Assembly (NCBI GenBank): GCA_006218025.1
Contig: VBWA01000028.1
Coordinates: forward strand, 1 to 64,000
Length of the DNA: 64,000 bases
From: Rhodocyclaceae bacterium
GTDB taxonomy: Bacteria > Pseudomonadota > Gammaproteobacteria > Burkholderiales > Rhodocyclaceae
Reading direction: 5' to 3'
Below are positions 40,213-63,513 of the stretch, in pieces; the first letter of the stretch is position 1; every line of letters starts with the position of its first letter. The notes under the pieces are model-generated. The model saw only the letters and a list, made by a program, of their open reading frames with translations, made no database searches and was not told where the DNA came from. The position numbers and the translations under genes were made by a program.

Positions 40213-41252
40213 ATGGATGAAGTCATCGGAAGCGACCAGCGCCACCCGGCAAAATACTGGCACGTGCTCGACGATGGCCGGTTGCAGTGCGATATTTGTC
40301 CGCGCGACTGCAAGCTCCACGAAGGCCAGCGCGGCGCCTGTTTCGTGCGTGGCCGCGCCGAAAACCAGATGGTGCTGACCACCTACGGACGATCCTCCGG
40401 CTTCTGCATTGACCCGATCGAAAAGAAGCCCCTCAACCATTTCTATCCGGGGTCGAGCGTGTTCTCGTTCGGCACCGCCGGCTGCAACCTGGCCTGCAAG
40501 TTCTGCCAGAACTGGGACATTTCCAAGCGCAGGCGCACGGCAGCAAGAGTGTCGCCTTCACCTACAACGATCCGGTAGTCTTTTTCGAGTACGCACTCGA
40601 TGCGGCTGATGCCTGCCATGAACTCGGACTCAAGACCGTCGCCGTCACCGCCGGCTACATGCACGATGCGCCCCGGCGCGAGTTCTACTCGAAGATGGAT
40701 GCGGCCAACATCGATCTGAAGGCCTTCACCGAAGACTTCTACGTCAAGCTCACCGGCGCCCACCTGCAGGCCATTCTCGATACGCTGGCCTATGTCCATC
40801 ACGACACCGACTGCTGGCTGGAAATCACGACGCTGCTGATCCCGGGCCACAACGACTCCGACGCCGAAGTTACCGAACTGACGCAATGGGTCGCCCGCGA
40901 ACTTGGCCCGGACGTGCCGCTGCACTTCAGCGCTTTCCACCCCGACTGGAAAATGGCCGACGTGCCGCCCACGCCGCCGGCGACCCTTGCCAAAGCCCGC
41001 CGCATTGCGCTCGACGCAGGTTTGCACTACGTCTACACAGGCAACGTTCATGACGTCGAAGGCGGCACGACGTATTGCCCCGGCTGCCACCACGCAGCCG
41101 TGGTGCGCGACTGGTACGATATTCGCCATTACGATCTGACGCCGCAGGGCAACTGCCCGAAGTGCGGACGGCAAATCGCCGGTCGCTTCGGAGAATTCAG
41201 CAAGCCCTTCGGTCCAAGACGCATCCCGGTACTCATGCAGGCCCACGCCTGA
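40213..41252 (+). pseudogene. AmmeMemoRadiSam radical SAM gene, frameshifted copy
   Basis: Homologous over its whole length to the intact gene at 62416-63513. The first frame (40213-40578) carries CDICPRDCKLHEGQRGACFV and the radical SAM CxxxCxxC reading NLACKFCQNWDIS. It then shifts after DISKR. The other frame resumes at SKSVAFTYNDPVVFFEY and runs to 41252. Against the intact copy about 58 nt are missing at 40530-40545, which breaks the frame. The downstream zinc-ribbon-like cysteines (YCPGC, NCPKCGRQ) are kept. The start is ATG 40213 after AGGAAGG. It may be a true pseudogene or an assembly deletion. Confidence 0.88.
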
Positions 41253-41260
41253 CCCTCATC

Positions 41261-41434
41261 ATGCTGAAAAAGACTGCAATCAGACGACCCATCGCCCTGG
41301 TGCTCGTTGTGCTCGGCGCCGCCCTGATGTTTCTGGCACCCGAGACCTGGGCCGGCCTGGCGCTTCTGGCAATCGGCATCTTGCTGGAAGTGGCCGGAAT
41401 CGCGCTGCGCCATCGGGATTCCCAGCGACCGTAG
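41261..41434 (+). CDS. Small two-helix membrane protein
   Basis: 57 residues, with two hydrophobic helices (PIALVLVVLGAALMFLAP and AGLALLAIGILLEVAGIAL), basic ends and a short turn. It starts 8 bp after the radical SAM frame ends. No family is recognised. It probably belongs to the same transcript. Confidence 0.6.
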   Translation: MLKKTAIRRPIALVLVVLGAALMFLAPETWAGLALLAIGILLEVAGIALRHRDSQRP

Positions 41435-41455
41435 GCGACAGGAGGTAGCGCGACG

Positions 41456-42142
41456 CTAGGGTTGTGATCGCGTCAGCGGAACAAAAGCCACCATCAGGAT
41501 GCTGCGGCTGCTGACGGATCCATCGCCGCGTTTCTCGACCAGCATCAGTTGCTGTACGCCTCCCGGTTCTCCGACCGGGATGACCAGCCGACCGCCGGGT
41601 TTCAGTTGTTCGACCAGCGGCGGCGGAATATGCGGCGCGGCCGCCGTGACGATGATGCCGTCGAAGGGCGCATGTTCGGGCCATCCGTGATAGCCGTCGC
41701 CATGGCGCACCGTGACATTGCCGTAGCCCAGCTCTTGCAGCCGCTCGTTGGCGCTGCTGGCCAGCGCGCCGATGATCTCGATGCTGTACACCTGCTGCAC
41801 GAGTTCCGCCAGCACCGCCGACTGATAGCCGGAGCCGGTGCCGACCTCGAGCACGATACTGTCCGGCCGAGGCTCGAGCAGATCGCTCATCAACGCGACG
41901 ATGTAGGGTTGCGAAATGGTTTGCCCGTAGCCTATCGGCAGCGGACCGTTGGCGAATGCACGATAGCGATCGTAGGCGCCGACGAATCGCTCACGCGGCA
42001 CCTTCGCCATGGCGGCCAAGACCCGCTCGTCGAGCGCCGCCTTGCCGATTTCGTAGCGGGTCAGCTCGACTTCATCGAGGATGTCGTGCAGCATGGTCTT
42101 GCGGTCCGCTGCCGTTCCGGATATTGAAAATCCATTCACCAT
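41456..42142 (-). CDS. pcm: Protein-L-isoaspartate O-methyltransferase (cytoplasmic)
   Basis: SAM-dependent repair of isoaspartyl damage in aged proteins. About 228 residues: VPRERFVGAY, the substrate-pocket IGYGQTISQPYIVALM, motif I LEVGTGSGYQSAVLAEL, GYGNVTVRHGDGYHGWPEHA, IIVTAAAPHIPPPL and GGRLVIPVG. The start is set at ATG 42142; the next in-frame ATG (42094) is also reasonable, and an upstream extension has no coding character. It is one of two PCMTs in the window; the other is exported (45829-46578). Confidence 0.92.
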   Translation of the reverse strand: MVNGFSISGTAADRKTMLHDILDEVELTRYEIGKAALDERVLAAMAKVPRERFVGAYDRYRAFANGPLPIGYGQTISQPYIVALMSDLLEPRPDSIVLEVGTGSGYQSAVLAELVQQVYSIEIIGALASSANERLQELGYGNVTVRHGDGYHGWPEHAPFDGIIVTAAAPHIPPPLVEQLKPGGRLVIPVGEPGGVQQLMLVEKRGDGSVSSRSILMVAFVPLTRSQP

Positions 42143-42261
42143 GGCGCATACCCGCCCATTTCGTTTTCCATCATAGTAGCGGCTGGCGCAAGGAACAGGC
42201 GAAGTCTCGGCGAACGACTGACCGGAGTCATGGAATCGCCGGGGTGCAAGGGACAAGCACA

Positions 42262-43041
42262 ATGGTGACGGCGACTTTTCGCTTCTATGAGGAATTGAAC
42301 GACTTTCTGCCCGCCGAGAGGCGCCGGCAGGAATTCGCCGCACTTTGCGCCGAGAGCGCGACAACCAAGCACATGATCGAGGCCTTGGGCGTGCCTCACA
42401 CCGAAGTCGAACTGATCCTGGTCAACGGCGAGTCGGTCGGTTTCGATCACCGGCTGCGGGATGGCGACCGCGTCGCGGTTTATCCGAAGTTCGAGGCCCT
42501 TGATATCACTCCCCTGCTCCGCGTCCGCGAACTGCCGTTGCGCAACCCGCGATTCGTCGCCGACGCCCATCTCGGAGCATTGGCCCGCCTGCTGCGCATG
42601 GCCGGCTTCGACACGCTCTACGACAATCTCTACCAGGACCGCGAGATTGCGGACACCGCCGGGCGGGACGGCCGCATCGTGCTGACGCGCGATCGCGAAC
42701 TGCTCAAACTGCGCAGCATTACGCACGGCTGCTATGTCCGTGCCATAGAGCCGGTGCAGCAGTTGCGGGAGATCATGGATCGCCTCGACCTGGCGCGCAG
42801 CGCCCGGCCCTTCAGCCTTTGCCTGGTGTGCAATGCGTCGCTGCGGCCCATCGACAAGGCGGCCGTGCTCGAAAGATTGCCTCCTTCGGTTCGAGACGGC
42901 CACGAGCATTTCACCACCTGCGACGTCTGCCGTCGCATCTTCTGGAAGGGTTCGCACTGGCGGCGGATGCAGTCAGTGCTGGATGGGTCACTGCAGGCAG
43001 TTGCCACCGATTTCTGCCGCAGCTGCGGCGATGGTCAATGA
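42262..43041 (+). CDS. MoaD/ubiquitin-like plus Mut7-C RNase-fold protein
   Basis: 259 residues. The N-terminal ~85 residues form a beta-grasp (ubiquitin/MoaD-like) domain (ATFRFYEELNDFLPAERR, VELILVNGESVGFDHRLRDG). It has no Gly-Gly tail, because the chain continues into Mut7-C, a PIN-like nuclease domain (FVADAHLGALARLLRMAGFD, DREIADTAGRDGRIVLTRDR), and a four-Cys zinc ribbon (CLVCNASL...CDVCRRIFWKGSHWRRM). Mut7-C proteins are implicated in RNA processing; the activity of this architecture is unproven. ATG 42262 follows AAGGGAC. It is convergent with the small gene at 43035 (7-bp overlap). Confidence 0.87.
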   Translation: MVTATFRFYEELNDFLPAERRRQEFAALCAESATTKHMIEALGVPHTEVELILVNGESVGFDHRLRDGDRVAVYPKFEALDITPLLRVRELPLRNPRFVADAHLGALARLLRMAGFDTLYDNLYQDREIADTAGRDGRIVLTRDRELLKLRSITHGCYVRAIEPVQQLREIMDRLDLARSARPFSLCLVCNASLRPIDKAAVLERLPPSVRDGHEHFTTCDVCRRIFWKGSHWRRMQSVLDGSLQAVATDFCRSCGDGQ

Positions 43042-43313
43042 TCTTCGAGGTGCGGGACCGATTCCTCGGCGGGTTGGCCGGTCTCGGGATCGATCCAGTC
43101 GGCGATGCCGATCTCGCTCTCGGCTTCCTCCAAAGATTCGCCGGCCTCGAGATTTGCGCCACCGCTTTCCATGTCATCGACCGCCTCGATCAGCGTCGCG
43201 AAGGGGCCGAATTCCTCGCCGCTTGCCCTGTGTTGCCAGTAGAAGCCGTCCGGGCGCTCGATGATGCGCGTCTTGTCGTAGTCGGGTGGAGTTTCGGGGA
43301 TTGCGATTGCCAT
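43035..43313 (-). CDS. Conserved small acidic protein
   Basis: 92 residues. The N-terminal half (DYDKTRIIERPDGFYWQHRA, SGEEFGPFATLIEAVDDM) looks like a small beta domain of the kind that aligns a residue stretch with a reading-guide motif. The C-terminal half is strongly acidic (LEEAESEIGIADWIDPETGQ). I recognise it only as a recurrent betaproteobacterial hypothetical. It is convergent with the Mut7-C gene and upstream of nothing on its own strand. Confidence 0.65.
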   Translation of the reverse strand: MAIAIPETPPDYDKTRIIERPDGFYWQHRASGEEFGPFATLIEAVDDMESGGANLEAGESLEEAESEIGIADWIDPETGQPAEESVPHLEDH

Positions 43314-43456
43314 GCTGCTACTCCTTTTTCATCCTTGCGAAAATCGTTTGATCTCTTCTTCTGAGATTCGCGCCGCGAGCGCACTACTGCACAGACGGGT
43401 CGATAGAAGAATACACCCGCCACGTTCCGGATACCGCATGAAAATACACAGCCCCT

Positions 43457-45815
43457 TCAATGCCCAGGCTCCGCAGGGAACAGCCAGGCGGCAAGTCCGT
43501 AAAGGGCCGCCGCCAGCAGCAGCACCGCGGCATAGCCCCAGTGGATGGCGAGCAGCGTCGCCAGCAGCGTCGCCACCACCGAGGCGAAGCCGTACGGCAA
43601 GCCCAAGCGGAAAGGGCATGCCGAGCCAGAATGCCAGGGGCGCGATCAGCAGCATGGTGAGCAGGATCTTCCAGCCGTGCGCCAGCCCCATGGCCTCGGC
43701 CAGCAGCGAGGGTAGCAGCAAGGCGTAGACGCCGGCCGTTACTGCAATGGCAGCAAAGGGCCAGCGCGCCGCCGGCGCAAGGCGTGCCGAAAAACGGGCA
43801 CCGAGGCCGGCGAACACCAGAAAGGCCGACAGCACGATGGCCGCCGCGTAGAGCGGGTGGCTGAGGAACAGGCCAAAACGCTGCAGCAGGGGAATCTCGA
43901 TCGCCATGAAGCCGAGGCCGAGCGCGAGAAAATAGCCGGGCACCCGCCGGCGCAGTTTTGCCGGCGCGGCGGCGAAGGCCTGCCGGGTGCCGGACAGCGC
44001 CAGCGGCAACAGGATCAGCAGCAGGCTCACCACCACCGCCTGTACCAGTGCCATCACCAGCACCAGGTAGCCCCAGTCCAGCGGCGGCAAGCCGCCGCGC
44101 GATCGAAGTGCGAGCAATTCCGGCAGGGTGTGCCACCTGAAGAAGTGAAAGAAATAGGGACGGTCATCGGTGGCCGGCGTCAGGTCGAACTTGTAGCGTT
44201 CGACGAAATTCATCCGCTCGCGGCCGAGCAGTGCCTGGGTGCCGCTGAAGAAATCGTCCCGTTCCAGCAGGTTGAAGGTGTTCGCTTCGTTCGCAACGAT
44301 GCCGTCGACATGAACGATGTCGAATGAGCGCAGCCGGCAGAAGCCCCTGAGGGCGCTGATCTCGGCCGCCGAAAAGGCGCCGTTCCTGACCAGCAGCGTA
44401 CTCGTGCTCCAACTGCGGATCATGGCCAGCGAGCGACCCGGATCGGCCACGCCGCGACGCTCCAGTGCCGCACGGGTGGTGGCGAAGAGCCGCAGGCTGT
44501 CGCGCGGCGGCAGGGAGACCCAGCGCGTGAAGGCCAGCAGCCCGCCGGGGGCCAGCCGTTGCAGGTAGCTTTCAAGCGCCTCGACGGTGTAGAGATGGCT
44601 CTCGTTCAGCGAGCCGAGACCCGCGGCGCTGGAGCCAGAGGAATCGAGCATGGCCACCTGAATCAGGTCGTAGCTGTCGCGACCGGCCGCGACGAAGCCG
44701 CGCGCCTCGGCGATATGCAGATGCACGCCCCGCGCGCTGTAGGGCCGCCCGGAAAACTCCGCCAGATCCTCCTGCACCAGCGCCGCGATCTGCGCGTCGA
44801 GCTCCACGGCATCTACCCGCTGCGCACCGTGCACCAGTGCCTGCAAAACGTCGCCGCCGGCGCCGGCACCAAGCACCAGTACGTGCGGTCGATCCAGCAG
44901 GCGGTAGGGCAGCGCCGACGTGGTGTCACGCAGATAGGCAAGCGGCGCCGTGCTTCCATCATGGCGAGTCACCGCTCCCGCTGCCTGGCCGTCCACGAAA
45001 AGCCCCAGCTGCGGAGGCGGACCGACGGCGGCGTTCAGGCTCAGGCCCGGGGCGTGGCGCAAAGGCGCCAGAGGGCTTGCCACCGCCGTGACCACGCCCA
45101 GCGGGCTGGCGCGCTGCGCCACGACATGGGCACCCTTGACGCGCAGCGCCTGGCTCAGGTCCTTGTAGTCCGAGGCAAGCAGTTCAAGCGCCGGCGCCGG
45201 CAGCAGCCACGGTCCGGCGAGCGCGGCCAGCGCGAGCACGGCCGCCCAACGCCTGGCCGTCGGCCATGCCGCGAGTGCCGCCGCCGCAAGGCCGAGCGCG
45301 CAGATGACGCGCAGTGCATCGGCCGGATGCAGGAAGAACAGCACCGCGAGCAAACCCAGACTGCCGAGCCCGGCGCCGAGGATGTCGGCGCCATAGAGTT
45401 GCGCAATGTGCTTGCCGAATGCACTGTAGGCGATGCACAGCGCCGTGGCAGCGCAGAAGAAGGGAATCAGGAGCAGCACATAGATCGCGGCCAGGCCAAT
45501 GAACTGCGCGGGGTTCCAGACAATTTCGAGGGCGTTGAAGGGTACCCGCTCGGCGGCGGTGAAGCAGCCCACGGCGGCCACCGCGAAGGCCGCCGCGGCA
45601 AGGGCGAAACTGCCGGGATAAGCCGCCAGCAGCGGGCGTCTTGCCAGTGTAACGAAGGTGCCGGCCGCGCCGATGCCGAGCAGCGCCACGCTGATGGCGA
45701 GGTAGGCGAAATGGTGCCACTGAATGATGGCGAACAGTCGCAGCAGCAGCAGTTCGTAACCCAGCGCGGCAGCCGACAGCGCGGCGACGGCGGCCAGTGG
45801 AGGTCGCTGCATCAT
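43457..45815 (-). pseudogene. Membrane spermidine-synthase-like protein, frameshifted near the C-terminus
   Basis: Large protein (about 785 residues if repaired). There are six or so N-terminal TM helices (ALSAAALGYELLLLRLFAII onward) and a central spermidine-synthase-like Rossmann domain (HVLVLGAGAGGDVLQALVHG, VDAVELDAQIAALV, YDLIQVAMLDSSGSSAAGLG). More TM helices end at FWLGMPFPLGL. The main frame then turns into junk, while another frame continues YGFASVVATLLATLLAIHWG to a stop at 43457. The segment usually lying between these (ending PWAWG-NG) is absent, so about 60-75 nt are probably deleted. Many members do not make polyamines and their substrate is unknown. The upstream part looks fully conserved. 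Confidence 0.8.
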
Positions 45816-45828
45816 GTACCGGGAATTT

Positions 45829-46578
45829 TCAATTGCGCGGGCTGGTGAGCGGCACAAAGACCACCGTCATCACTTGCCGCATCGTCAGCGTGCCGTCGTG
45901 GCGCTTCTCTACCAGCAGCAGTTGCTGCGTCTGGAAGGCGGGGCCGACGGGGATCACCAGGCGTCCGCCGGGTTTCAACTGCCGCACCAGAGGCGGCGGC
46001 ACATGGCTTGCGGCGGCAGTCACCACGATCGCATCGAAGGGCCCCCGCTCCGGCCAGCCATCGTAGCCGTCGCCGATCTTTGTCGCGATAGCCGCGTAGC
46101 CCAGCCGCCGCAGTCGTTCGGTAGCTTCCCGGGCGAGCGGCTCGACGATCTCGACGGACGACACCCTCGCGCCGAGTTCGGCGAGCACTGCCGCCTGGTA
46201 ACCCGAGCCGGTACCGATCTCCAGCACCGTATCGCCAGCGCCGACTTTCAGCAGATCGGTCATCACGGCGACGATGTAGGGCTGGGAGATGGTCTGCCCG
46301 TAACCGATGGGCAACGGCCGATTGCCGTAGGCGTCGAGACGGAACGACAGGGGAACGAACTCGTGTCGGGGCACGCGACCCAGCACGCCGAGCACCCGGG
46401 GATCGACGTTCTGCCTGCCGGTCCCCGCGCCGAAGTCCCGTGACATCGACACAATCTCCGCCACCATCGCCTGCCGTTCCCGGGTCATGCCGTCGTCGGC
46501 CAGGACGGAGGAGTCGAGCAGCAGCGCGAACGCGATTGCCAGCCAGCGCAAACTGACTCGCCGGAATTGCCTGTTCAT
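45829..46578 (-). CDS. Periplasmic protein-L-isoaspartate O-methyltransferase homologue
   Basis: 249 residues. The N-terminus is a signal peptide (RWLAIAFALLLDSSVLADDG, cleavage near residue 28), followed by a complete PCMT domain: [65 protein letters not shown] and PGGRLVIPVG. SAM is not expected in the periplasm, so either the leader is a membrane anchor or the enzyme has an unusual role. Its KVGAGDT stretch is encoded by a copy of the dispersed motif (46229). ATG 46578 is chosen. It is adjacent to the spermidine-synthase-like gene. Confidence 0.87.
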   Translation of the reverse strand: MNRQFRRVSLRWLAIAFALLLDSSVLADDGMTRERQAMVAEIVSMSRDFGAGTGRQNVDPRVLGVLGRVPRHEFVPLSFRLDAYGNRPLPIGYGQTISQPYIVAVMTDLLKVGAGDTVLEIGTGSGYQAAVLAELGARVSSVEIVEPLAREATERLRRLGYAAIATKIGDGYDGWPERGPFDAIVVTAAASHVPPPLVRQLKPGGRLVIPVGPAFQTQQLLLVEKRHDGTLTMRQVMTVVFVPLTSPRN

Positions 46579-46611
46579 GATTCCTGCCGAAAATGCCATT
46601 GGCGATGCCTG

Positions 46612-46974
46612 TCAGCAGGTCACGTGGAACAGGCCGACAACCGAGCCGTGCGCCTTGTTCCAATGCGCTATGGCTGCCGGCGTGGGCGCCAGATCGACCG
46701 CCACTCCCTTTTTCGCGAAATAGTCGGCGGCCTCGCCCGACAGCGTGACCATGCCGTTCTGCCCGGCGCCGACGATCAGCCGCTCGGCGCCCTTCTCGAA
46801 AATGTACTCGGCTTCCGCCAGCGAGATGGTGTGGGAGGTTCCATAGACGGCCTTGGAGAGCTTCTTCCTGCGCTTCGTCACCTCTCCGGAAAGCCGGATC
46901 AGCACATCATGTTCGATGCGCTCGCCATCGATGGTGATGGAGCCGAATTCGGTGCCGTCGATTTTGGGTTTCAT
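46612..46974 (-). CDS. Mth938-like domain protein
   Basis: 120 residues of the Mth938/NDUFAF3-like fold (TEFGSITIDGERIEHDVLIR, YIFEKGAERLIVGAGQNGMV, VDLAPTPAAIAHWNKAHGSV). The family is found in Archaea, in bacteria and as mitochondrial complex I assembly factor NDUFAF3. No activity is established in bacteria. It lies 49 bp after rtcB, in line with the polX-archease-rtcB operon. Confidence 0.88.
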   Translation of the reverse strand: MKPKIDGTEFGSITIDGERIEHDVLIRLSGEVTKRRKKLSKAVYGTSHTISLAEAEYIFEKGAERLIVGAGQNGMVTLSGEAADYFAKKGVAVDLAPTPAAIAHWNKAHGSVVGLFHVTC

Positions 46975-47023
46975 TGGCTGCTCCTTTCACTGAGGGGAGT
47001 CCCGGTCGCCTGATGCGCCAAGC

Positions 47024-48454
47024 CTATCCCTTGACGCAGATCACAGGCGACAGGCGCGCCACCTTGCCGGCCAGCCCCGCGCGGTCGGCGGCATCGACCA
47101 CGGCCGTGACATCCTTGTAGGCCAGCGGCGCCTCCTCGGCGACGCCGCGCGAACTCGAGCTGCGGATCAGGATGCCGCGCGCCGCCAGTTCGTCGACCAC
47201 CGCGCGGCCGTGCCAACGACGAGCCGCTTCGTGACGGCTCATCGCGCGTCCGGCGCCGTGGCAGGCGGAGCCGAAGGCGCGCTCTGCAGTGCCGGCACTG
47301 CCGGCGAGGATGTACGAGGCCGTGCCCATGCTGCCGCCGATCAGCACCGGCTGCCCGACATGCGCGTATTCGTGCGGCAGTTCGACATGTCCCGGCCCGA
47401 AGGCCCGCGTCGCGCCCTTGCGATGCACGAACAGCCGCCGCTTGCGGCCGTCCACCGTATGCGTCTCTTCCTTGCAGGTGTTGTGCGAGACGTCGTACAG
47501 CAGCGGCAGGTGCGCGCCGGGAAACACCTCGGCGAAGGCCTGCCGCGCCAAGTGGGTGAGGATCTGCCGGTTGGCCAGCGCGCAGTTGATGGCCGCGCGC
47601 ATGGCGCCCAGGTACCGTATCCCCAGCGCCGACTTCAGCGGCGCGCAGGCCAGTTCGCGATCGGGCAGCGCGATGCCTGCCGCCGGTGCGGCCAGCACCA
47701 TCTCGCGCAGGAAGTCGGTGCCGATCTGGTGCCCGAGGCCGCGCGAGCCGCAATGGAGGCTGACCACGACGTCGCCGACGGCCAAGCCGTAGGCGCGGGC
47801 GGCCGCTTCGTCGAAGATTTCGCTCACCACCTGCACTTCGAGGTAGTGGTTGCCCGAACCCAGCGTGCCCATTTCGTCGCGCTGGCGCTTCTTCGCCTGG
47901 TCCGACACGGCGCCGGGATCGGCGCCTTCGACACAGCCGAATTCCTCGATGCGGGCGAGGTCGGCATCAAGGCCGTGACCCTCCTCGACGGCCCAGCGCG
48001 CGCCGCCCCGAAGCATCGCCGCCATCCCGGCCGGATCGAGCCGGATGCCACCGGTGCTGCCGATACCGGCGGGAATGCGGGCAAACAGCCTGTCGGCCAG
48101 ACGCGCCTTTTGCGCTTCGATGTCGGCGAGCTTCAGCCCCGTGTGCAGGGTGCGCACGCCGCAGGAAATGTCGAAGCCGACGCCGCCGGCCGAGACCACC
48201 CCACCTTCGTCGGCATCGAAGGCGGCGACGCCGCCGATCGGAAAGCCGTAGCCCCAGTGCGCGTCGGGCATGGCATAGGAGGCGGTGACGATGCCGGGCA
48301 GGCTGGCGACGTTGGCGACCTGCTCGCGCACTTTCTCGTCCATGCCTGCGATCAATTCGCGCGAAGCGAAGATCACACCCGGCACGCGCATGGCTCCGGC
48401 CCTCGGCAACTCCCATTCGAATTCGCCGCGCTGCTTGAGATTCTTCAGGTCCAT
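47024..48454 (-). CDS. rtcB: RNA-splicing ligase RtcB
   Basis: GTP- and Mn-dependent ligase joining RNA 2',3'-cyclic-phosphate (or 3'-phosphate) ends to 5'-OH ends. The 476-residue product has PDAHWGYGFPIGGVAAFD, GGVGFDISCGVRTL (metal-binding Asp/Cys), GSGNHYLEVQ, LHCGSRGLGHQIGTD, YDVSHNTCKEE and the guanylylated His in GSACHGAGRAMSR. ATG 48454 starts 7 bp after the archease stop. It is in one operon with archease, its activator. Confidence 0.96.
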   Translation of the reverse strand: MDLKNLKQRGEFEWELPRAGAMRVPGVIFASRELIAGMDEKVREQVANVASLPGIVTASYAMPDAHWGYGFPIGGVAAFDADEGGVVSAGGVGFDISCGVRTLHTGLKLADIEAQKARLADRLFARIPAGIGSTGGIRLDPAGMAAMLRGGARWAVEEGHGLDADLARIEEFGCVEGADPGAVSDQAKKRQRDEMGTLGSGNHYLEVQVVSEIFDEAAARAYGLAVGDVVVSLHCGSRGLGHQIGTDFLREMVLAAPAAGIALPDRELACAPLKSALGIRYLGAMRAAINCALANRQILTHLARQAFAEVFPGAHLPLLYDVSHNTCKEETHTVDGRKRRLFVHRKGATRAFGPGHVELPHEYAHVGQPVLIGGSMGTASYILAGSAGTAERAFGSACHGAGRAMSRHEAARRWHGRAVVDELAARGILIRSSSSRGVAEEAPLAYKDVTAVVDAADRAGLAGKVARLSPVICVKG

Positions 48455-48461
48455 GCCGCCC

Positions 48462-48887
48462 TCACACGTCAACGACGCACTGCGCCAGCCACCGCCCGTC
48501 CGGCTCGCGCCGCACCGCCAGTTCGCAGAATGATGCGCCCTTGACCTCGGCCGCGGGCTGGTGTCGCGCCACGTCTACCGGCTCGCCCCAGACGATGGCG
48601 CTCAGGTGGTTGTGATCGATGGTGACTTCGAAACGCGAGAACAGCATGTGGCGCGTCGCCATTTCATAGACCAGCGCATTGAGCCAATCCACCAGCAGCA
48701 TCTCTTGATCCGGCGCCGTGCATTCGATGTTCACCGTATCACCAGCGCCGACTTTTGCCGGATCGCAGATCGCGGCCGTCATGGCCGTGGCCGCGCCGGC
48801 GAAGGCTTCGCTCAGGGTGGCGCCGCTGCCGCGCACGCCGATGTCGGCTTCATGCGCGAAGGTTTCCCAGCGGGTTTCCGGATTCAT
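48462..48887 (-). CDS. Archease
   Basis: 141-residue activator that speeds RtcB guanylylation and multiple turnover. It has [40 protein letters not shown] and the metal-binding [13 protein letters not shown]...WLAQCVVDV end. The FAHEADIG acidic metal site is clear. Its start overlaps the polX stop (4 bp). A copy of the dispersed motif at 48736 encodes its KVGAGDTV. Confidence 0.94.
48736..48756 (-). repeat. Copy of the dispersed 24-bp motif inside the archease gene
   Basis: Minus strand AAAAGTCGGCGCTGGTGATA followed by CGGTG. It encodes KVGAGDTV in the archease frame. The copy at 46229-46248 encodes the same peptide in an unrelated methyltransferase. Confidence 0.7.
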
Positions 48888-50611
48888 CGCCGCACCTGTT
48901 CCAGCAGAAGCCGCAACTCGGGCAGCGGCCGCGTGTTGAGCACGTCCGTCGCTGCCAGCCAGCCGCGCCGCGCCTGACCGATGCCCAGGCGAAGGTGGAC
49001 GAAGTCGTCGCGGCTGTGCGCATCCGAATTGATCGCGACCAGCACGCCCTCCTCTTTCGCCATCATGCAGTGGCTGTCGAGCAGGTCGAGCCGCTCAGGG
49101 TGCGCGTTCAGCTCGAGGAAGCAGCCGCGTTGCCGCGCCTGGCGGATGATGCGCAACATGTCGACATCGTAGGGCTCGCGACTCTCGATGACGCGGCCGG
49201 TGGGATGCGCCAGCAGGGTGAAATACGGATTGTCCATCGCGCGCAGGATGCGCTCGGTCTGCCTTGCCCGCGGCAGATCGAAGCGGCTATGCACGGCACC
49301 GATGACGAGGTCGAGCCGGGCGAGCGAGGCATCGGGCAGATCGAGGCTGCCGTCCTCCAGGATATCCACCTCGATGCCCTTCAGCAGCACGATGCCGGCC
49401 AGCTTTTCGTTCAGACGGTCGATAGCGTCGCACTGGTCGGCGAGCCGGCGCGGATCGAGGCCATGTGCCATGGCCAGCCGCCGCGAATGCTCGGTGATGG
49501 CGAGGTAGGACAAACCCAGCGCCTTGGCCGCCAGCGCCATTTCCTCCAGCGTATGGTGGCCGTCGGTGGCCCTGGTGTGCGCATGCAGGTCGCCGCGCAG
49601 ATCGGCCAATTCCACCAGCTGCGGCAACCGGCCGGCACGCGCCGCTGCAATCTCGCCGCGGTCCTCGCGCAGCTCCGGCGCGATCCAGGGCAGACCGAGC
49701 GCCTGATAGACGGACTCCTCGCTGGCACCGGCAATGCGTTCGCGGCCGCGGAAGACGCCATACTCGTTGAGCTTGAGGCCCTGCTCCTGGGCAAGGCGGC
49801 GCAGCGCGATGTTGTGCGCCTTGGAGCCCGTGAAATAGCACAGGGCCGCCCCATACGCCGCTCTTTCGACGACGCGCAGATCCACTTGCAGACCGCATTT
49901 CAGCACCACGCTGGCGCGCGTCGGCCCGTGAGAGAGCACCTCGGCCGCCTCGTCGAAAGCGATGAAGCGCGCCATGACGGAACTACCGGCCGCGGCAATG
50001 ACCAGAATGTCGAGGTCGCCGACCGTCTCGCGGCAGCGCCGGTAACTTCCCGCCACCTCGACGCGGCTCACTCCGTATGCGCTGGCGAGCCAGGCCACCA
50101 GAGACTCGGCGTACTGCGCTGCGGTGATGAGCTTGATGCGCCGTGCCTTGGACAGATGCGCCTCGACCGCCTGCAGGATATTGGCCTCCATCTTCGCGCC
50201 GAAGCCGGGCAGGTCGCGGATGCGGCCATCGCGGGCGGCCCGCGCCAATTGCTCCAGCGTTTGCACATCGAGTTCGTGCCAGAGCATGCGCACCCGTTTC
50301 GGCCCCAGCCCCGGCACATGCAGCAACTCGGTGATTGCCGGCGGCAGCTCGGCATGCAGCTTGTCCAGTGCACGGCATCTGCCCGTATCGACGATTTCGC
50401 GCATCTTGCCCGCGAGGTCGTCGCCGATTCCGGGCAGATCGGTCAGATCTTCGTCACGCGCGACCATGGCGCGGACTTCCCGGCCCATTTCGCCGACGAT
50501 GCGCGCGGCATTGCGGTAGGCGCGAATGCGAAACGGGTTGGCCTGCTCGATCTCCAGCAAGTCGGCCATTTCGGTGAAAATCGCGGCGATGTCGGCGTTG
50601 TGGGTGGGCAT
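48884..50611 (-). CDS. polX: PolX-type DNA polymerase/3'-5' exonuclease
   Basis: 575-residue family X polymerase with a PHP nuclease domain, linked to base-excision and gap repair. Order: N-terminal HhH repeats ([52 protein letters not shown]), the nucleotidyltransferase triad region [13 protein letters not shown], then the PHP domain ([54 protein letters not shown]). It is the first gene of polX-archease-rtcB, which puts DNA-end and RNA-end repair in one transcript. Confidence 0.95.
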
Positions 50612-50682
50612 CTCAGCCTCGGTGCAAACCTGCCTGTCGGTCCCTCAGGAAAGGCCAGTCCGGATTGATGGCGGTCACCCTA

Positions 50683-51282
50683 TCAACGGCGCCGTTGATA
50701 GTACCCGATCAGTTCGGAGCGACCGAGGACGTGGCCTTGCATGGCCTTTTCCAGCGCCGCCTTGGTGGGCAGTTCCAGGTCCGGCAGCACCACGTCCAGC
50801 GCAAATAGCTTGTGAATGTAGCGATGCCTGCCGACGGGCGGGCAGGGTCCGCCGTAGCCCGTACGTTGCCAGTCGTTCAAGCCCTGCCGGGCTCCCGGCG
50901 GCAGATCCTTCACCGCAACGCCTTCGGCCAGGGCCGCGGCGCCAGGTGGAATGTTGTAGAGAACCCAATGTACCCAGGTCATTCTGGGTGCCGCGGGGTC
51001 CGGGGCATCCGGATCATCGACAAACAGGGCGAGGCTTTTCGTGCTGGCAGGTAAACCTGTCCAGGACAGTTGCGGCGAGAGGTTCTGCCCCTCACAGGTG
51101 AGACGTGACGGGAGCATGCCGTCGGGCATGAATGATCCCGAGTGGAGTGCGAACGACATGGGGTTTTCTTTGCTGCTGTCGAGGGGCATCAAACCCTCCG
51201 CTGCCGCGGCGGAGAAGGCAACAAGGACAGCCAACAGACCGATCGTCCAGTTTTCGGCATCACGGCAGGATCGATATTTCAC
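50683..51282 (-). CDS. YbhB/YbcL-family PEBP protein, exported
   Basis: 199 residues of the Raf-kinase-inhibitor-like/PEBP family: LPSRLTCEGQNLSPQLSWTG, SLALFVDDPDAPDPAAPRMT, WVHWVLYNIP and the ligand-pocket GYGGPCPPVGRHRYIHKLFA. An N-terminal hydrophobic stretch (IGLLAVLVAFSAAAAEG) is a likely signal peptide. The bacterial role is unknown. It lies 71 bp upstream of polX on the same strand. Confidence 0.9.
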   Translation of the reverse strand: MKYRSCRDAENWTIGLLAVLVAFSAAAAEGLMPLDSSKENPMSFALHSGSFMPDGMLPSRLTCEGQNLSPQLSWTGLPASTKSLALFVDDPDAPDPAAPRMTWVHWVLYNIPPGAAALAEGVAVKDLPPGARQGLNDWQRTGYGGPCPPVGRHRYIHKLFALDVVLPDLELPTKAALEKAMQGHVLGRSELIGYYQRRR

Positions 51283-51358: not shown

Positions 51359-51598
51359 CTAGTCGCGAATCTCCACCAGGGCTTCCACATCGGCCTCGGC
51401 CTGAAACCAGTCCGACATTTCGTTTCCCGGAACAAAGCCGCGCTGCTCGGCGCGGAAATAGGCGGCCTCTGCGATCATCTGCTCGCGTGGGCAATCGTAA
51501 CCGGCAGAGGATGGCGGAGCGAACGTGTTCGCTCCCCGCGCCTGCTGCCCCGAACCATTGCCCTTGGCCTTGCTCACCGGCTCACTCCTGGTCTTCAT
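51359..51598 (-). CDS. DUF2934 domain protein
   Basis: 79 residues. The N-terminus is basic and unstructured; the C-terminal DUF2934 helix pair reads CPREQMIAEAAYFRAEQRGF and EMSDWFQAEADVEALV. ATG 51598 follows CAGGAGAAGAAA, an excellent ribosome-binding site, so a longer reading starting at 51808 is rejected. The function is unknown. Confidence 0.82.
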   Translation of the reverse strand: MKTRSEPVSKAKGNGSGQQARGANTFAPPSSAGYDCPREQMIAEAAYFRAEQRGFVPGNEMSDWFQAEADVEALVEIRD

Positions 51599-51814
51599 TT
51601 TCTTCTCCTGTTCATTATTCGGTTGCCTGGAAATACTGGCTGGCAGCGAAAAGCAGTAATCACCTTCGTAAATCGGGAAGGCAGAATTCACTGGCCTCGC
51701 GCCTTCAGCAGCAGACCCTCTGTTGCTGGCAGCGCCATCGGCTAACGGCAGGTGCGCTGCGTACCGAGACGTCCGTTGATAAACAGACTCCATTGCATCC
51801 CTTCCCACCCGGAA

Positions 51815-52231
51815 CTACGCCTCATTCGCCGCTTCGGGTCGCCTGACATTGAGGAGAAAGGTCTCCTGTCCGCCCCTCATGAGTCGGGACAGGTTGAGTT
51901 CGACCGGGAACCTTTGTCCGCCGGCATCGACCGCCTCAAATCTGCGCCATTCACCTTCTCCGCAGAGATAGACCAAATATCTCGCGGCATAGCTCGGCGA
52001 ACTCCCTCCGAGATGCAGGCCCGCGATGCAGTCCGAAATCGGCCTCCCGACAAGTCCAGGCTGGCTCGCGCCAAGTACTCTTTCCCCTGTCGCGCCGCAA
52101 CTGCGAATTCTGCCCATTCCGTCCAGAACCAGGCTCCCGTACTCGCCTCCGTTCACAAGCTTCGCGCCAGCATGAAACATGTCAGGCGTCAATCCGTCTT
52201 GTTGCATTCCCACTACGCCGTGTCCGATCAT
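51815..52231 (-). CDS. Single PAS-like domain protein
   Basis: About 138 residues, essentially one PAS fold (YGSLVLDGMGRIRSCGATGE, VGRPISDCIAGLHLGG, WRRFEAVDAGGQRFPVELNL). It has no output domain. The start MIGHGVVGMQQDG near 52231 is the most likely, since the upstream extension has a cysteine-poor, unconserved look. It may modulate a kinase or diguanylate cyclase elsewhere. Confidence 0.68.
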   Translation of the reverse strand: MIGHGVVGMQQDGLTPDMFHAGAKLVNGGEYGSLVLDGMGRIRSCGATGERVLGASQPGLVGRPISDCIAGLHLGGSSPSYAARYLVYLCGEGEWRRFEAVDAGGQRFPVELNLSRLMRGGQETFLLNVRRPEAANEA

Positions 52232-52535
52232 GATTAGTACTTCCCCCCCGGAATATTTCGGCACGTGCCGGAAGGCAGGTGCACACAAAATCTCCAATTC
52301 AAAACATATTCGGCATAGGCGATAAAGGGAATACCGCAGTCGCCGTATTCTGAATACCCGGATGCCGGTACTTTTTTTGTTGCCCCCTGCTGCGGCGAAC
52401 GGCGCCAGGGTGCCGCCCAGAGGCTTCTCCGCCGACTCGCCCGATTTTCAATCCGGCGATCCCAACGAAAAAGCGCCCCTGGCAGGGGCGCTTTTTCGGG
52501 TCTGCCGGCAGGGATGAGGCCCGGCGAATTAAAGA
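52232..52535. other. Intergenic region, no gene seen
   Basis: About 300 bp with reduced GC in the first half. The only clear structure is the strong bidirectional terminator at 52466-52498. Confidence 0.6.
52466..52498. terminator. Bidirectional intrinsic terminator
   Basis: CGAAAAAGCGCCCCT-GGC-AGGGGCGCTTTTTCG is a perfect fifteen-pair stem with A-run and T-run on either side. It serves the minus-strand gene ending at 52536 and would insulate the PAS gene. Confidence 0.92.
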
Positions 52536-52841
52536 CTATTGGCGGCGCATTTCCCGGCGACCGGGCGCCATCCGGCCCGGATAGAGGTCGCGCCCCGCGT
52601 CATGGACATCACGACGCAACTGACGCCGCTCTTCGGGTGACAGGCGATTGCCTCGATCGTGCGGCATGACATCCCGCGGAGACAACTGTTCGGGCCGCTG
52701 TTCGACGGGCATCATCCGTTGCGGGCCGCTACCGTCCCGTGCCGGCGGAGGACGAACCGGCTCCTGCGCGGAGGAGCCAATGGCCAAAAGCCACATGACA
52801 CTCCCCACGACCGCCCATTTCACCCTGCGTTTTGCCGTCAC
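52536..52841 (-). CDS. Exported basic protein of unknown function
   Basis: 101 residues if started at GTG 52841 (ribosome-binding GAGG seven bases upstream). It has a signal peptide (VKWAVVGSVMWLLAIGSSAQ) and then a Pro/Arg/Gln-rich mature part with MMPVEQRPEQLSPRD and LSPEERRQLRRDVHDAGRDL. I recognise the LSPEERRQLRRD-DAGRD-YP pattern as a recurring betaproteobacterial hypothetical. It is the second gene of a pair with 52861-52995. Confidence 0.7.
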   Translation of the reverse strand: MTAKRRVKWAVVGSVMWLLAIGSSAQEPVRPPPARDGSGPQRMMPVEQRPEQLSPRDVMPHDRGNRLSPEERRQLRRDVHDAGRDLYPGRMAPGRREMRRQ

Positions 52842-52860
52842 AGCCGAACCTCTATCATCT

Positions 52861-52995
52861 TCAATGGAGGATATTGTAAACCTGCTGGCCGGCAAGATGG
52901 CTGGCCGCCATCAGGTGATCGACGCCAGCCTGCGGTTCGGCGCCCCACAAAGCCAGCCCTGCGGCCAACGCCATACTGAAGAACAGTGCTTTCAT
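52861..52995 (-). CDS. Very small exported protein
   Basis: 44 residues (MKALFFSMALAAGLALWGAE then QAGVDHLMAASHLAGQQVYN). It looks like a signal peptide plus a 25-residue mature peptide. A near-ideal ribosome-binding site (CGGAGGCAATC) precedes the ATG, which argues that it is translated. It is divergent from the ompR-like gene and 19 bp upstream of the next exported protein. The function is unknown; it could be an envelope-stress peptide controlled by that two-component system. Confidence 0.6.
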   Translation of the reverse strand: MKALFFSMALAAGLALWGAEPQAGVDHLMAASHLAGQQVYNILH

Positions 52996-61024: not shown

Positions 61025-62415
61025 ATGACCATGAGAACTGCTACCGCGACCCGTCCGCCGGCCGTTGCCGGCATGTTCTATCCAGGCGATCCTGCAAGCC
61101 TTCAGAATGAATTGGCGACCTGCCTCGCCGTTGCCGTCCCGCGAAGCGGAAGTCCAGGCACGCAAGGCGGAGCAGCGCCGACCTTTGAGCCTGCCGCCCC
61201 CGGCCTGCTCAAGGCCGTCATCGTGCCGCATGCCGGTTACATCTATTCGGGCGGCACCGCGGGCCATGCCTACGCGCTGCTGGCTCCGCTCGCCGGACGC
61301 ATCAAGCGCGTGGTGCTGCTCGGGCCCTGCCACCGCGTGTCCGTGCGCGGGCTGGCGGCGCCCACGGTACAGGCCTTCGCCACGCCGCTGGGCAGCATCC
61401 CGCTCGACCGCGCCGCACTGGACGCGCTGGCCGATCTGCCGCAGGTCGTGGCCAGCGACGACGCCCACGCCCAGGAGCACTCGCTCGAAGTGCAACTGCC
61501 CTTCCTGCAAACCGTGCTGGGACAATTCGAACTGGTGCCGCTGGCAGTGGGCCAAGCCAGCAGCGGCGAGGTGGCCCAGGTGCTGGATCGCCTCTGGGGC
61601 GGGCCGGAAACGCTGATCGTGATCAGCTCCGACCTGTCGCACTTTCACACCTACCACGAAGCGCAGGCGATCGACAAGGCGACCGCCGAGCACATCCTCG
61701 CCCTCGACCAGCTCACCAGTTTCGACCAGGCCTGCGGCGCGCTGCCGATCAACGGCCTGCTCGCCCTGGCGCGCAAGCGCGGGCTGCGCATCGAGCGCGT
61801 GGCGCAATGCAACTCGGGCGACACGGCCGGCGACAAATCGCGCGTGGTCGGCTATGCCTCCTTCGCCCTCTATGAGCCCGCTGCGGTCGTAGCCGATCTC
61901 GGCCCGGCCCTGCTGGTGCGGGCTCGCAATGCCATCGCGGCAAAACTCAAGCAGCCGACGCAGGCCGAGCCCGTGCATTCCGCGCTGAGCCAACCCGGCG
62001 CCACCTTCGTCACGCTGACGCAGAACGGTCAGCTGCGCGGCTGCATCGGCTCGCTGCAGGCCCACCGTGCGCTCGATCAGGATGTGCGCGCCAACGCCGT
62101 CGCCGCCGCCTTCAGCGACCCGCGCTTTCCGCCGCTGACGCTGGCCGAACTGCCGCACACCCGCGTCGAAGTATCGCTGCTCACGGCGCCGCAGCCGATG
62201 AAGTTCAGCGACGAGGCCGATGCCGTTCGCCAGTTGCGCCCCAATGTCGACGGGATCATCTTCATTGCTGGCCAGCGACGCGGCACCTTCCTGCCGCAGG
62301 TCTGGGAGCAGCTGCCCGACCCGCGCCAGTTCCTCGCCCACCTCAAGCAGAAGGCCGGGCTGCCGGCCAACTATTGGTCGTCCGAAGTGGAACTGCAACG
62401 CTACGAGGTGCAGAA

Positions 62416-62440
<25 letters not shown>
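61025..62440 (+). CDS. Memo-AMMECR1 fusion (AmmeMemoRadiSam proteins B and A)
   Basis: 471 residues made of two proteins. Residues ~8-285 are a Memo/MEMO1-like dioxygenase fold with conserved metal-site residues (PPAVAGMFYPGDPASLQNEL, VIVPHAGYIYSGGTAGHAYA, GPCHRVSVRG, AQEHSLEVQLPFLQ, VISSDLSHFHTY, CGALPINGLLAL). Residues ~290-471 are an AMMECR1 domain (FVTLTQNGQLRGCIGSLQAH, ALDQDVRANAVAAAFSDPRF, HTRVEVSLLT, RRGTFLPQVWEQLPDPRQFL). The pair plus the radical SAM enzyme form the AmmeMemoRadiSam set. The system has no established reaction. It overlaps the next gene by 25 bp. Confidence 0.93.

Positions 62441-63513
<1,073 letters not shown>

Follow-up and report, generated by a model that had tools for sequence, protein, structure and literature searches.

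Between positions 40213 and 51282 of a 64,000-nucleotide stretch of Rhodocyclaceae bacterium DNA (assembly GCA_006218025.1, contig VBWA01000028.1, positions 1 to 64,000; here the window), genes for DNA gap repair, RNA ligation and protein repair stand side by side, which raises the question of whether they form one system. A preliminary description, made from the letters alone, had suggested a single coordinated damage-repair system of archaeal flavour, perhaps transferred as a block. The region is read here, with a probability of roughly 0.7, as a lineage-typical bacterial (Rhodocyclaceae-type) stress-repair island of piecemeal content that holds two real functional modules. These separable modules would have gathered at a single place in the chromosome, flanked by sensor genes on one side and a regulator/kinase/globin group on the other. 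The first, PolX-archease-RtcB, would mend broken nucleic-acid ends; the second pairs a protein-L-isoaspartate O-methyltransferase (PCMT), termed PCMTb, with a SpeE-like membrane protein.

Window proteins were scanned with Pfam and NCBIfam profile hidden Markov models, and the gene families named in the preliminary description were all borne out by the matches. Seven of the genes, between 51.3 and 43.5 kb, are co-directional (first gene at the top):

50683–51282, minus strand: PEBP (YbhB/YbcL) family protein, first gene of the run (PF01161, 9.6e-45; TIGR00481)
48884–50611, minus strand: PolX, with HHH, Pol-beta palm and thumb, and PHP domains (NF006375, 510.8 bits against a cut-off of 426)
48462–48887, minus strand: archease, predicted activator of RtcB (PF01951, 2.6e-39)
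47024–48472, minus strand: RtcB, predicted 3'-phosphate/5'-OH RNA ligase (PF01139, 9.8e-168)
46612–46974, minus strand: DUF498/Mth938-like protein (PF04430, 9.9e-14)
45829–46599, minus strand: PCMTb, with a signal-peptide-like N-terminus (PF01135, 8.5e-63), overlapping or abutting the SpeE-like gene
43457–45857, minus strand: SpeE-like polytopic membrane protein (PF01564, 4.4e-06), predicted as seven transmembrane segments, a SpdSyn-like domain of about 375 residues and five transmembrane segments

The successive gaps are 71, -4, -11, 49, 12 and -29 bp, the last assuming a TTG start (an ATG start gives 13 bp). The overlaps of 4 bp (PolX/archease) and 11 bp (archease/RtcB) agree with the earlier view of these three genes as one overlapping or abutting run, and the spacing makes the same-strand run longer than the three genes named there. 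Genes of the run may be expressed in common.

The members of the first module are well defined. Archease and RtcB score above the curated family cut-offs and are adjacent on one strand; RtcB is the single match of its kind in an own-genome search. All four domains of PolX (HHH, palm, thumb and PHP) are in a single chain, which exceeds the equivalog cut-off; the palm is just below its Pfam cut-off (24.2 against 25). Three palm Asp and nine PHP His, Asp or Glu positions, which we take to be the palm Asp triad and the PHP metal ligands, are invariant in 10 aligned sequences, that of the window included.

The association of these genes recurs in the class (Gammaproteobacteria). Among 60 archease loci, RtcB is found at 59, the sole miss being a 5.4 kb contig (L086), and PolX at 12, a count that excludes L090 (34% identity over 27% of PolX). 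The same loci hold PCMT at 4, an AMME radical SAM gene at 3, SpeE-like and PEBP genes at 1 each, and DUF498 and Mut7-C at none. A 20 kb stretch makes up some 0.7% of a genome of 3 Mb, so that by chance (arithmetic, not simulation) fewer than one PolX would be expected in the 60 loci; for a multi-copy gene, the PCMT count is close to the chance level. From the PolX side, RtcB lies within 10 kb in 23 and archease in 20 of 80 loci, these being the best 80 of at least 591 relatives and biased to this lineage. Wider spacing is also seen, with PolX 14–22 kb from archease in three genomes (G226, G176, G277) and about 10 and 36 kb from it in the relatives G032 and G050. Across 276 genomes of the class PolX and archease occur together in 37 (odds ratio 21, Fisher p 5e-18, the Fisher tests treating related genomes as independent). 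The check that the preliminary description had proposed, on co-occurrence and clustering of the families across genomes, thus came out in favour of PolX with archease and of archease with RtcB.

Mapped on the PolX tree for 55 loci, the neighbourhood label shows no fewer than 12 changes; four orientations occur. The count covers 54 of the 80 PolX loci plus the window, with 26 uncounted; because short-flank loci were dropped only if they lacked RtcB, the 24 positives among the 55 do not represent a rate. Nitrosomonadaceae have a near relative of the window PolX next to RtcB of a far lineage, a pairing that suggests the two genes met independently there.

Once activated by archease, RtcB joins 3'-phosphate or cyclic-phosphate RNA ends to 5'-OH ends; DNA ends with a 3'-phosphate can be substrates too. 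PolX works on DNA gaps, which it trims and fills. We infer that both handle damaged 3' ends and have met repeatedly for that reason; their recurrent meeting suggests damaged 3' ends as a problem common to DNA gap repair and RNA rejoining. None of the papers searched mentions PolX together with RtcB. In the published portions consulted, RtcB forms DNA3'pp5'G caps at 3'-phosphate DNA ends (PMC4499129), and archease and rtcB form an operon of adjacent or overlapping genes in bacteria and archaea, with archease activating RtcB (Desai et al. 2014, PMC3973293). The island run differs from that operon in having PolX upstream, the extra neighbour given in those portions being a tRNA m5C methyltransferase and not PolX. 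In stress-response operons (PMC10901736), RtcB has Balon, Hsp20 and other proteins as neighbours. They resemble the island in setting RtcB in a survival gene neighbourhood, but are centred on Balon and RaiA, and PolX is not mentioned in the parts of that paper drawn on here.

Other gene groups also recur around archease, at 24, 13 and 11 of 66 loci and fewer (L053–L112 and relatives); by eye, some of these neighbours look like sensor kinases, Hsp20, phosphoribosyl pyrophosphate (PRPP) synthetase and host-attachment proteins. In four Nitrosomonadaceae loci (L147, L152, L161, L192) a distant archease-RtcB lineage is placed divergently from PolX.

Are these genes archaeal? Archease is present in 64 and PolX in 50 of the 276 genomes of the class, and a PCMT-family match, weak methyltransferase cross-matches counted, in 54 of 56. 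Of the statement that the families are more typical of Archaea or of repair, the families and the repair theme are supported; an archaeal bias does not hold for this class of bacteria. In a PolX tree of 100 rows, six rows from the window's genus (99*) join the Rhodocyclaceae records L143 and L144 (96*) and L149 (97*), and all of these nest in a mostly betaproteobacterial clade of 47 rows (99*). This clade comprises all rows named betaproteobacterial except one Nitrosospira metagenome bin (L184), and also takes in rows titled only Proteobacteria or Gammaproteobacteria, plus four Pseudomonas. The closest named PolX record is that of Rhodocyclaceae isolate S2_15 (84%). Similarly, seven genus rows of RtcB (98*) join a same-family genome and L143 (99*), then L149 (95*). 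Both trees hold bacterial rows and no archaeal ones, so that origin is judged by grouping among bacteria. The archease tree, built on 137 columns, has mostly unresolved forks and a long-branch warning; the window falls in a starred ten-row set, and little is drawn from it.

The grouping of PolX and RtcB with Rhodocyclaceae in these bacterial trees speaks against the archaeal or deep origin that had been proposed. PolX, RtcB and archease have the appearance of bacterial genes that are usual for this lineage, and the descent of PolX and RtcB looks vertical. The preliminary description had named vertical betaproteobacterial descent of each gene, with clustering unique to this genome, as the outcome that would count against it; the former looks true of PolX and RtcB, and the latter is contradicted by recurrence of the gene order elsewhere.

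The site itself shows this recurrence. One flank consists of sensor genes (CheB/CheR-PAS in the window) and the other of a conserved response-regulator/histidine-kinase/globin group, and six further members of the genus carry the block there, complete or in part and with shared neighbours. The Rhodocyclaceae records L143 and L149 keep some of the gene order too, and at many loci elsewhere RtcB neighbours archease or PolX; the clustering exceeds chance.

Within the genus, the content of the island comes and goes in separate pieces. Archease occurs in 7 and PolX in 6 of 31 genomes, matches at E ~1e-3 in G017, G000 and G050 being excluded from the PolX tally, and all PolX carriers are among the archease carriers. 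PolX, archease and RtcB are all missing from the site in three loci (L123, L125, L127). In L124 the SpeE-like, PCMTb, DUF498 and PEBP genes are kept and PolX-archease-RtcB is missing, while L016 keeps RtcB, archease and Mut7-C and is missing PolX, PCMT and the SpeE-like gene. Archease and RtcB lie more than 5 kb apart in L020 (2835–10203; genome G027), and about 6 kb separates RtcB from DUF498 in L143. On a genus tree of the neighbouring regulator and kinase, covering 27 of the 31 genomes, archease requires at least four changes and PolX at least four. A recent loss is indicated by genome G001, the sister of the carrier G015 (94/84, not starred): its site is empty and is spanned by a single contig (L125).

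The second module is an independent, widespread operon. Of the 276 class genomes, 35 encode the SpeE-like protein. At 26 of 29 class loci its gene is immediately preceded by a same-strand PCMT gene, with -22 to 188 bp between match ends; contig ends truncate the remaining three loci. The 29 loci are drawn from 35 places outside the window, the remaining six being mostly the weakest matches. In a sample of the phylum, 18 further SpeE-like places were found, many only about 27–34% identical, and 15 have a PCMT in the available flank (13 upstream, two downstream); L274 has none, the locus being at a contig end. Nine plasmid records with a SpeE-like protein at 47.8% identity or more (H1–H9 of 13) carry a close same-strand PCMT match (H14–H22); the SpeE-like proteins of the other four records are at 27–30%. 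Phyllobacterium zundukense is among the carriers of the pair. PolX and the SpeE-like gene show no significant co-occurrence in the 276 genomes (p 0.10). In a PCMT tree labelled by adjacency rather than by signal, with L264 and L266 marked as paired by hand, one branch separates SpeE-adjacent from other PCMTs (support 89; long-branch warnings).

PF01135 extends over most of PCMTb, which matches PDB entries of PIMT (Pcm) and has a GYGQTISQP-type motif, which we take to be the isoaspartyl-site motif of that enzyme. It departs from PIMT in its signal-like N-terminus and recurrent SpeE-like partner. Its own genome has seven PCMT-family matches, five of them strong, and the two PCMTs of the island are unlike: hydropathy of the N-terminal 10-mer is 2.7 in PCMTb (45.8–46.6 kb) and 1.72 in PCMTa (41.5–42.1 kb), just under a threshold of 1.8 that was chosen after the first version of the test. 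A hydrophobic, uncharged 10-residue N-terminal segment, measured in the stretch ahead of the PCMT core, is present in 36 of 36 SpeE-adjacent PCMTs against 0 of 7 others; 16 PCMT rows without the anchor motif are unmeasured, and many of the 36 positive rows are related, five coming from the window's genus. A further sample yielded 10 new controls, none above the line, and no independent positives, its six SpeE-adjacent PCMTs and 3 of 13 others being already in the main test and 14 of 33 unmeasured.

Among distant PCMTs, N-termini read by eye look Tat-like in L265 and L267, lipobox-like in L266 and Sec-like in L261, L268, L270–L273 and L275; L264 is unreadable and the start of L269 uncertain. 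PCMTb itself would be exported, its signal-like N-terminus arguing against the cytoplasmic location of PIMT. In both plasmid records examined (L276, 3279–3920; L277, 3134–3817) the annotated PCMT start lies inside or after the hydrophobic segment, and omission of the segment by annotated starts may be why an exported-type PCMT has gone unnoticed so far. A Rhodopseudomonas PIMT gene is reported to be tied to growth-arrest survival, with substrate residues noted as missing (PMC5705917). In the titles and abstract openings of the literature matches listed, neither isoaspartate repair outside the cytoplasm nor a signal-bearing PCMT with a SpeE-like partner was found.

The topology of the SpeE-like protein was averaged over 33 aligned rows, window included, with 15 stretches called by program merged or split by eye into 12. 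In the resulting layout about 375 soluble residues separate a first set of seven hydrophobic segments from a second set of five. Positive charge on alternate loops would place the soluble domain outside, together with a conserved WHH motif, whose W and first H occur in all 33 rows and whose second H occurs in 31. By sequence (1.6e-5) and by fold this domain is SpdSyn-like; all 50 fold matches listed are to proteins of this kind, with TM-scores of 0.34–0.42 on the query. The scores are low because half of the soluble-part model is unsure: AlphaFold2, run with two sequences, gave a mean pLDDT of 54.4, with 14 of 19 ten-residue blocks over residues 91–280 at 70 or above, and the model was used only to confirm the fold. 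A model of the whole protein from three sequences (mean pLDDT 48.5) was too poor and was left unused. The domain contains a Rossmann core of the type binding S-adenosylmethionine (SAM) or decarboxylated SAM, with the GxGxG positions conserved in all or all but one of the 33 rows and a Glu in every row, which we take to be nucleotide-binding positions. No NCBIfam cut-off is reached by the protein. Its cofactor half thus matches spermidine synthase by sequence and fold; unlike that soluble cytoplasmic enzyme, the domain lies within a protein of 12 hydrophobic, presumably transmembrane, segments, on the predicted outer side, and has the first catalytic Asp replaced.

It is of interest to consider what such a pair might do. 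Envelope proteins age and are hard to replace in non-growing cells; oxidised methionine in the envelope is repaired by MsrPQ. An exported PCMTb, with a partner whose SAM-type Rossmann domain is on the same outer side, would mend aged envelope proteins, the partner supplying or holding SAM. We propose tentatively, and with considerable doubt, that the pair performs a widespread proteobacterial SAM-dependent isoaspartyl repair of envelope proteins, with export by Sec (elsewhere by Tat or as a lipoprotein) and a partner that moves or holds SAM outside. If this is true, periplasmic chemistry would be running on SAM. The conservation of the PCMT, its apparent export and the recurrence of its membrane partner raise the question of how SAM arrives outside. 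That supply problem would vanish if the PCMTb N-terminus were an uncleaved anchor keeping the enzyme at the inner membrane face near cytoplasmic SAM. Anchors resemble signal peptides, and the test scored hydrophobicity only. The Tat-like and lipobox-like versions in relatives and the basic residues ahead of the segment in many rows (all by eye), together with the predicted outside location of the partner domain, speak against anchoring, which we consider possible and rather unlikely.

For the island as a whole, a single coordinated system of archaeal flavour transferred as a block would account for the complete or partial gene order seen at one site in six more members of the genus, and for its partial retention in L143 and L149. 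Such a transfer is very improbable given that PolX and RtcB group with Rhodocyclaceae, that archease and PolX are common in the class, and that the pieces vary separately. Among PDB entries, RtcB reaches similar scores for a Pyrococcus-type one (504 bits) and a Thermus one (493 bits), and the top score of PolX falls on one from Thermus. What survives of the claimed coordination is the clustering of PolX with archease-RtcB from both sides (12/60; 23/80) and their co-occurrence (37/276). Movement as one block does not, in view of the separate presence and absence of pieces in the genus and of a SpeE-like gene near archease at just one of 60 class loci. A hotspot of unrelated stress genes, gathered by a common integration site and selection for long survival and having no common mechanism, deserves to be taken seriously, if still short of probable. 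Content does vary between conserved flanks, archease elsewhere keeps other recurrent company (a group that includes sensor kinases at 24 of 66 loci, the next at up to 13 of 66), and just 4 of 60 archease loci have a PCMT at a distance of 10 kb or less. A mere hotspot would leave unexplained that PolX-RtcB and PCMTb-SpeE-like adjacency recurs beyond the site and beyond the family.

Several observations weigh against the reading of a piecemeal island with two modules, or against the function proposed for the second. The genus comparison leans partly on incomplete genomes (completeness from 70%). The SpeE-like protein and archease occur together in 20 of 276 genomes (odds ratio 6), above expectation, so a wider functional guild is possible, and the co-directional spacing from PEBP to SpeE-like would also fit one transcript with one function. 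Two distant SpeE-like loci (L262, L263) have no PCMT in flanks of about 1.5 kb. A small-x-small pattern follows the hydrophobic segment in 36 of 36 SpeE-adjacent PCMTs, yet also in 6 of 7 controls, so that hydrophobicity alone separates the two sets. The first catalytic Asp of SpdSyn is lost from the SpeE-like protein, being Ala in the window (in the 33 rows the commonest residues are 17 Ala, 8 Ser and 4 Pro), and the protein is therefore probably not an aminopropyltransferase. Finally, we know of no route that supplies SAM to the periplasm.

The DUF498, Mut7-C, PCMTa, PEBP and broken radical SAM genes are neighbours for which little or no linkage was found beyond the family. The genes left of the seven-gene run, and a related set further right in the window, are as follows:

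40213–41252, plus strand: second copy of a radical SAM gene of the AmmeMemoRadiSam type, frameshifted and in two pieces, 40213–40578 and 40659–41252 (TIGR04337 matches both)
41258–41434, plus strand: small protein, hydrophobic by eye (no Pfam match), kept beside the radical SAM gene in the genus
41456–42142, minus strand: PCMTa, an ordinary protein-L-isoaspartate O-methyltransferase (PF01135, 2.4e-63; NF001453)
42262–43041, plus strand: protein with Ub-Mut7C and Mut7-C RNase domains (PF14451, 5.1e-38; PF01927, 1.2e-51)
43035–43313, minus strand: small protein of no known family (no Pfam match; relatives in L016, 88%, and L023, 83%)
61025–63513, plus strand: complete AmmeMemoRadiSam set (TIGR04336, TIGR04335, TIGR04337)

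The two radical SAM pieces at 40.2 kb are out of frame in the window and form a single frame in the four compared relatives that have both (L015, L018, L023, L123), which makes the gene a pseudogene or an assembly error. In the complete set, Memo and AMMECR1 are fused in one open reading frame (61025–62440), followed by an intact radical SAM gene (62374–63513). The 40.2 kb gene resembles this set in belonging to TIGR04337, and differs in being broken and in lying away from the Memo and AMMECR1 partners at 61 kb. With a full set at 61.0–63.5 kb, the broken copy gives no support for a functional link to the island. The SpeE-like gene also shifts frame near its 3' end, at about 43.6 kb; two frame changes within about 4 kb (the radical SAM gene and ~43600) may reflect decay or assembly error. 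Elsewhere, a radical SAM (AMME) gene lies upstream of archease-RtcB in L157, L159, L182, L069 and L071, four of which have PolX.

As to a mobile element, for which no systematic search was made, no tRNA was found in the 64-kb window. An anti-phage defence system was considered and rejected, as a PADLOC scan of 10 proteins gave only mad2 cross-matches to three methyltransferase-like proteins (shared fold). Relatives of the small protein at 41258–41434 occur in L015, L016, L017, L018, L023 and L123–L125. The right flank of the island (51359–52895) encodes a DUF2934 protein and two small proteins; among 19 archease-minus loci of the genus, a DUF2934 match is present in 11 and the small protein of 52536–52895 in all 19.

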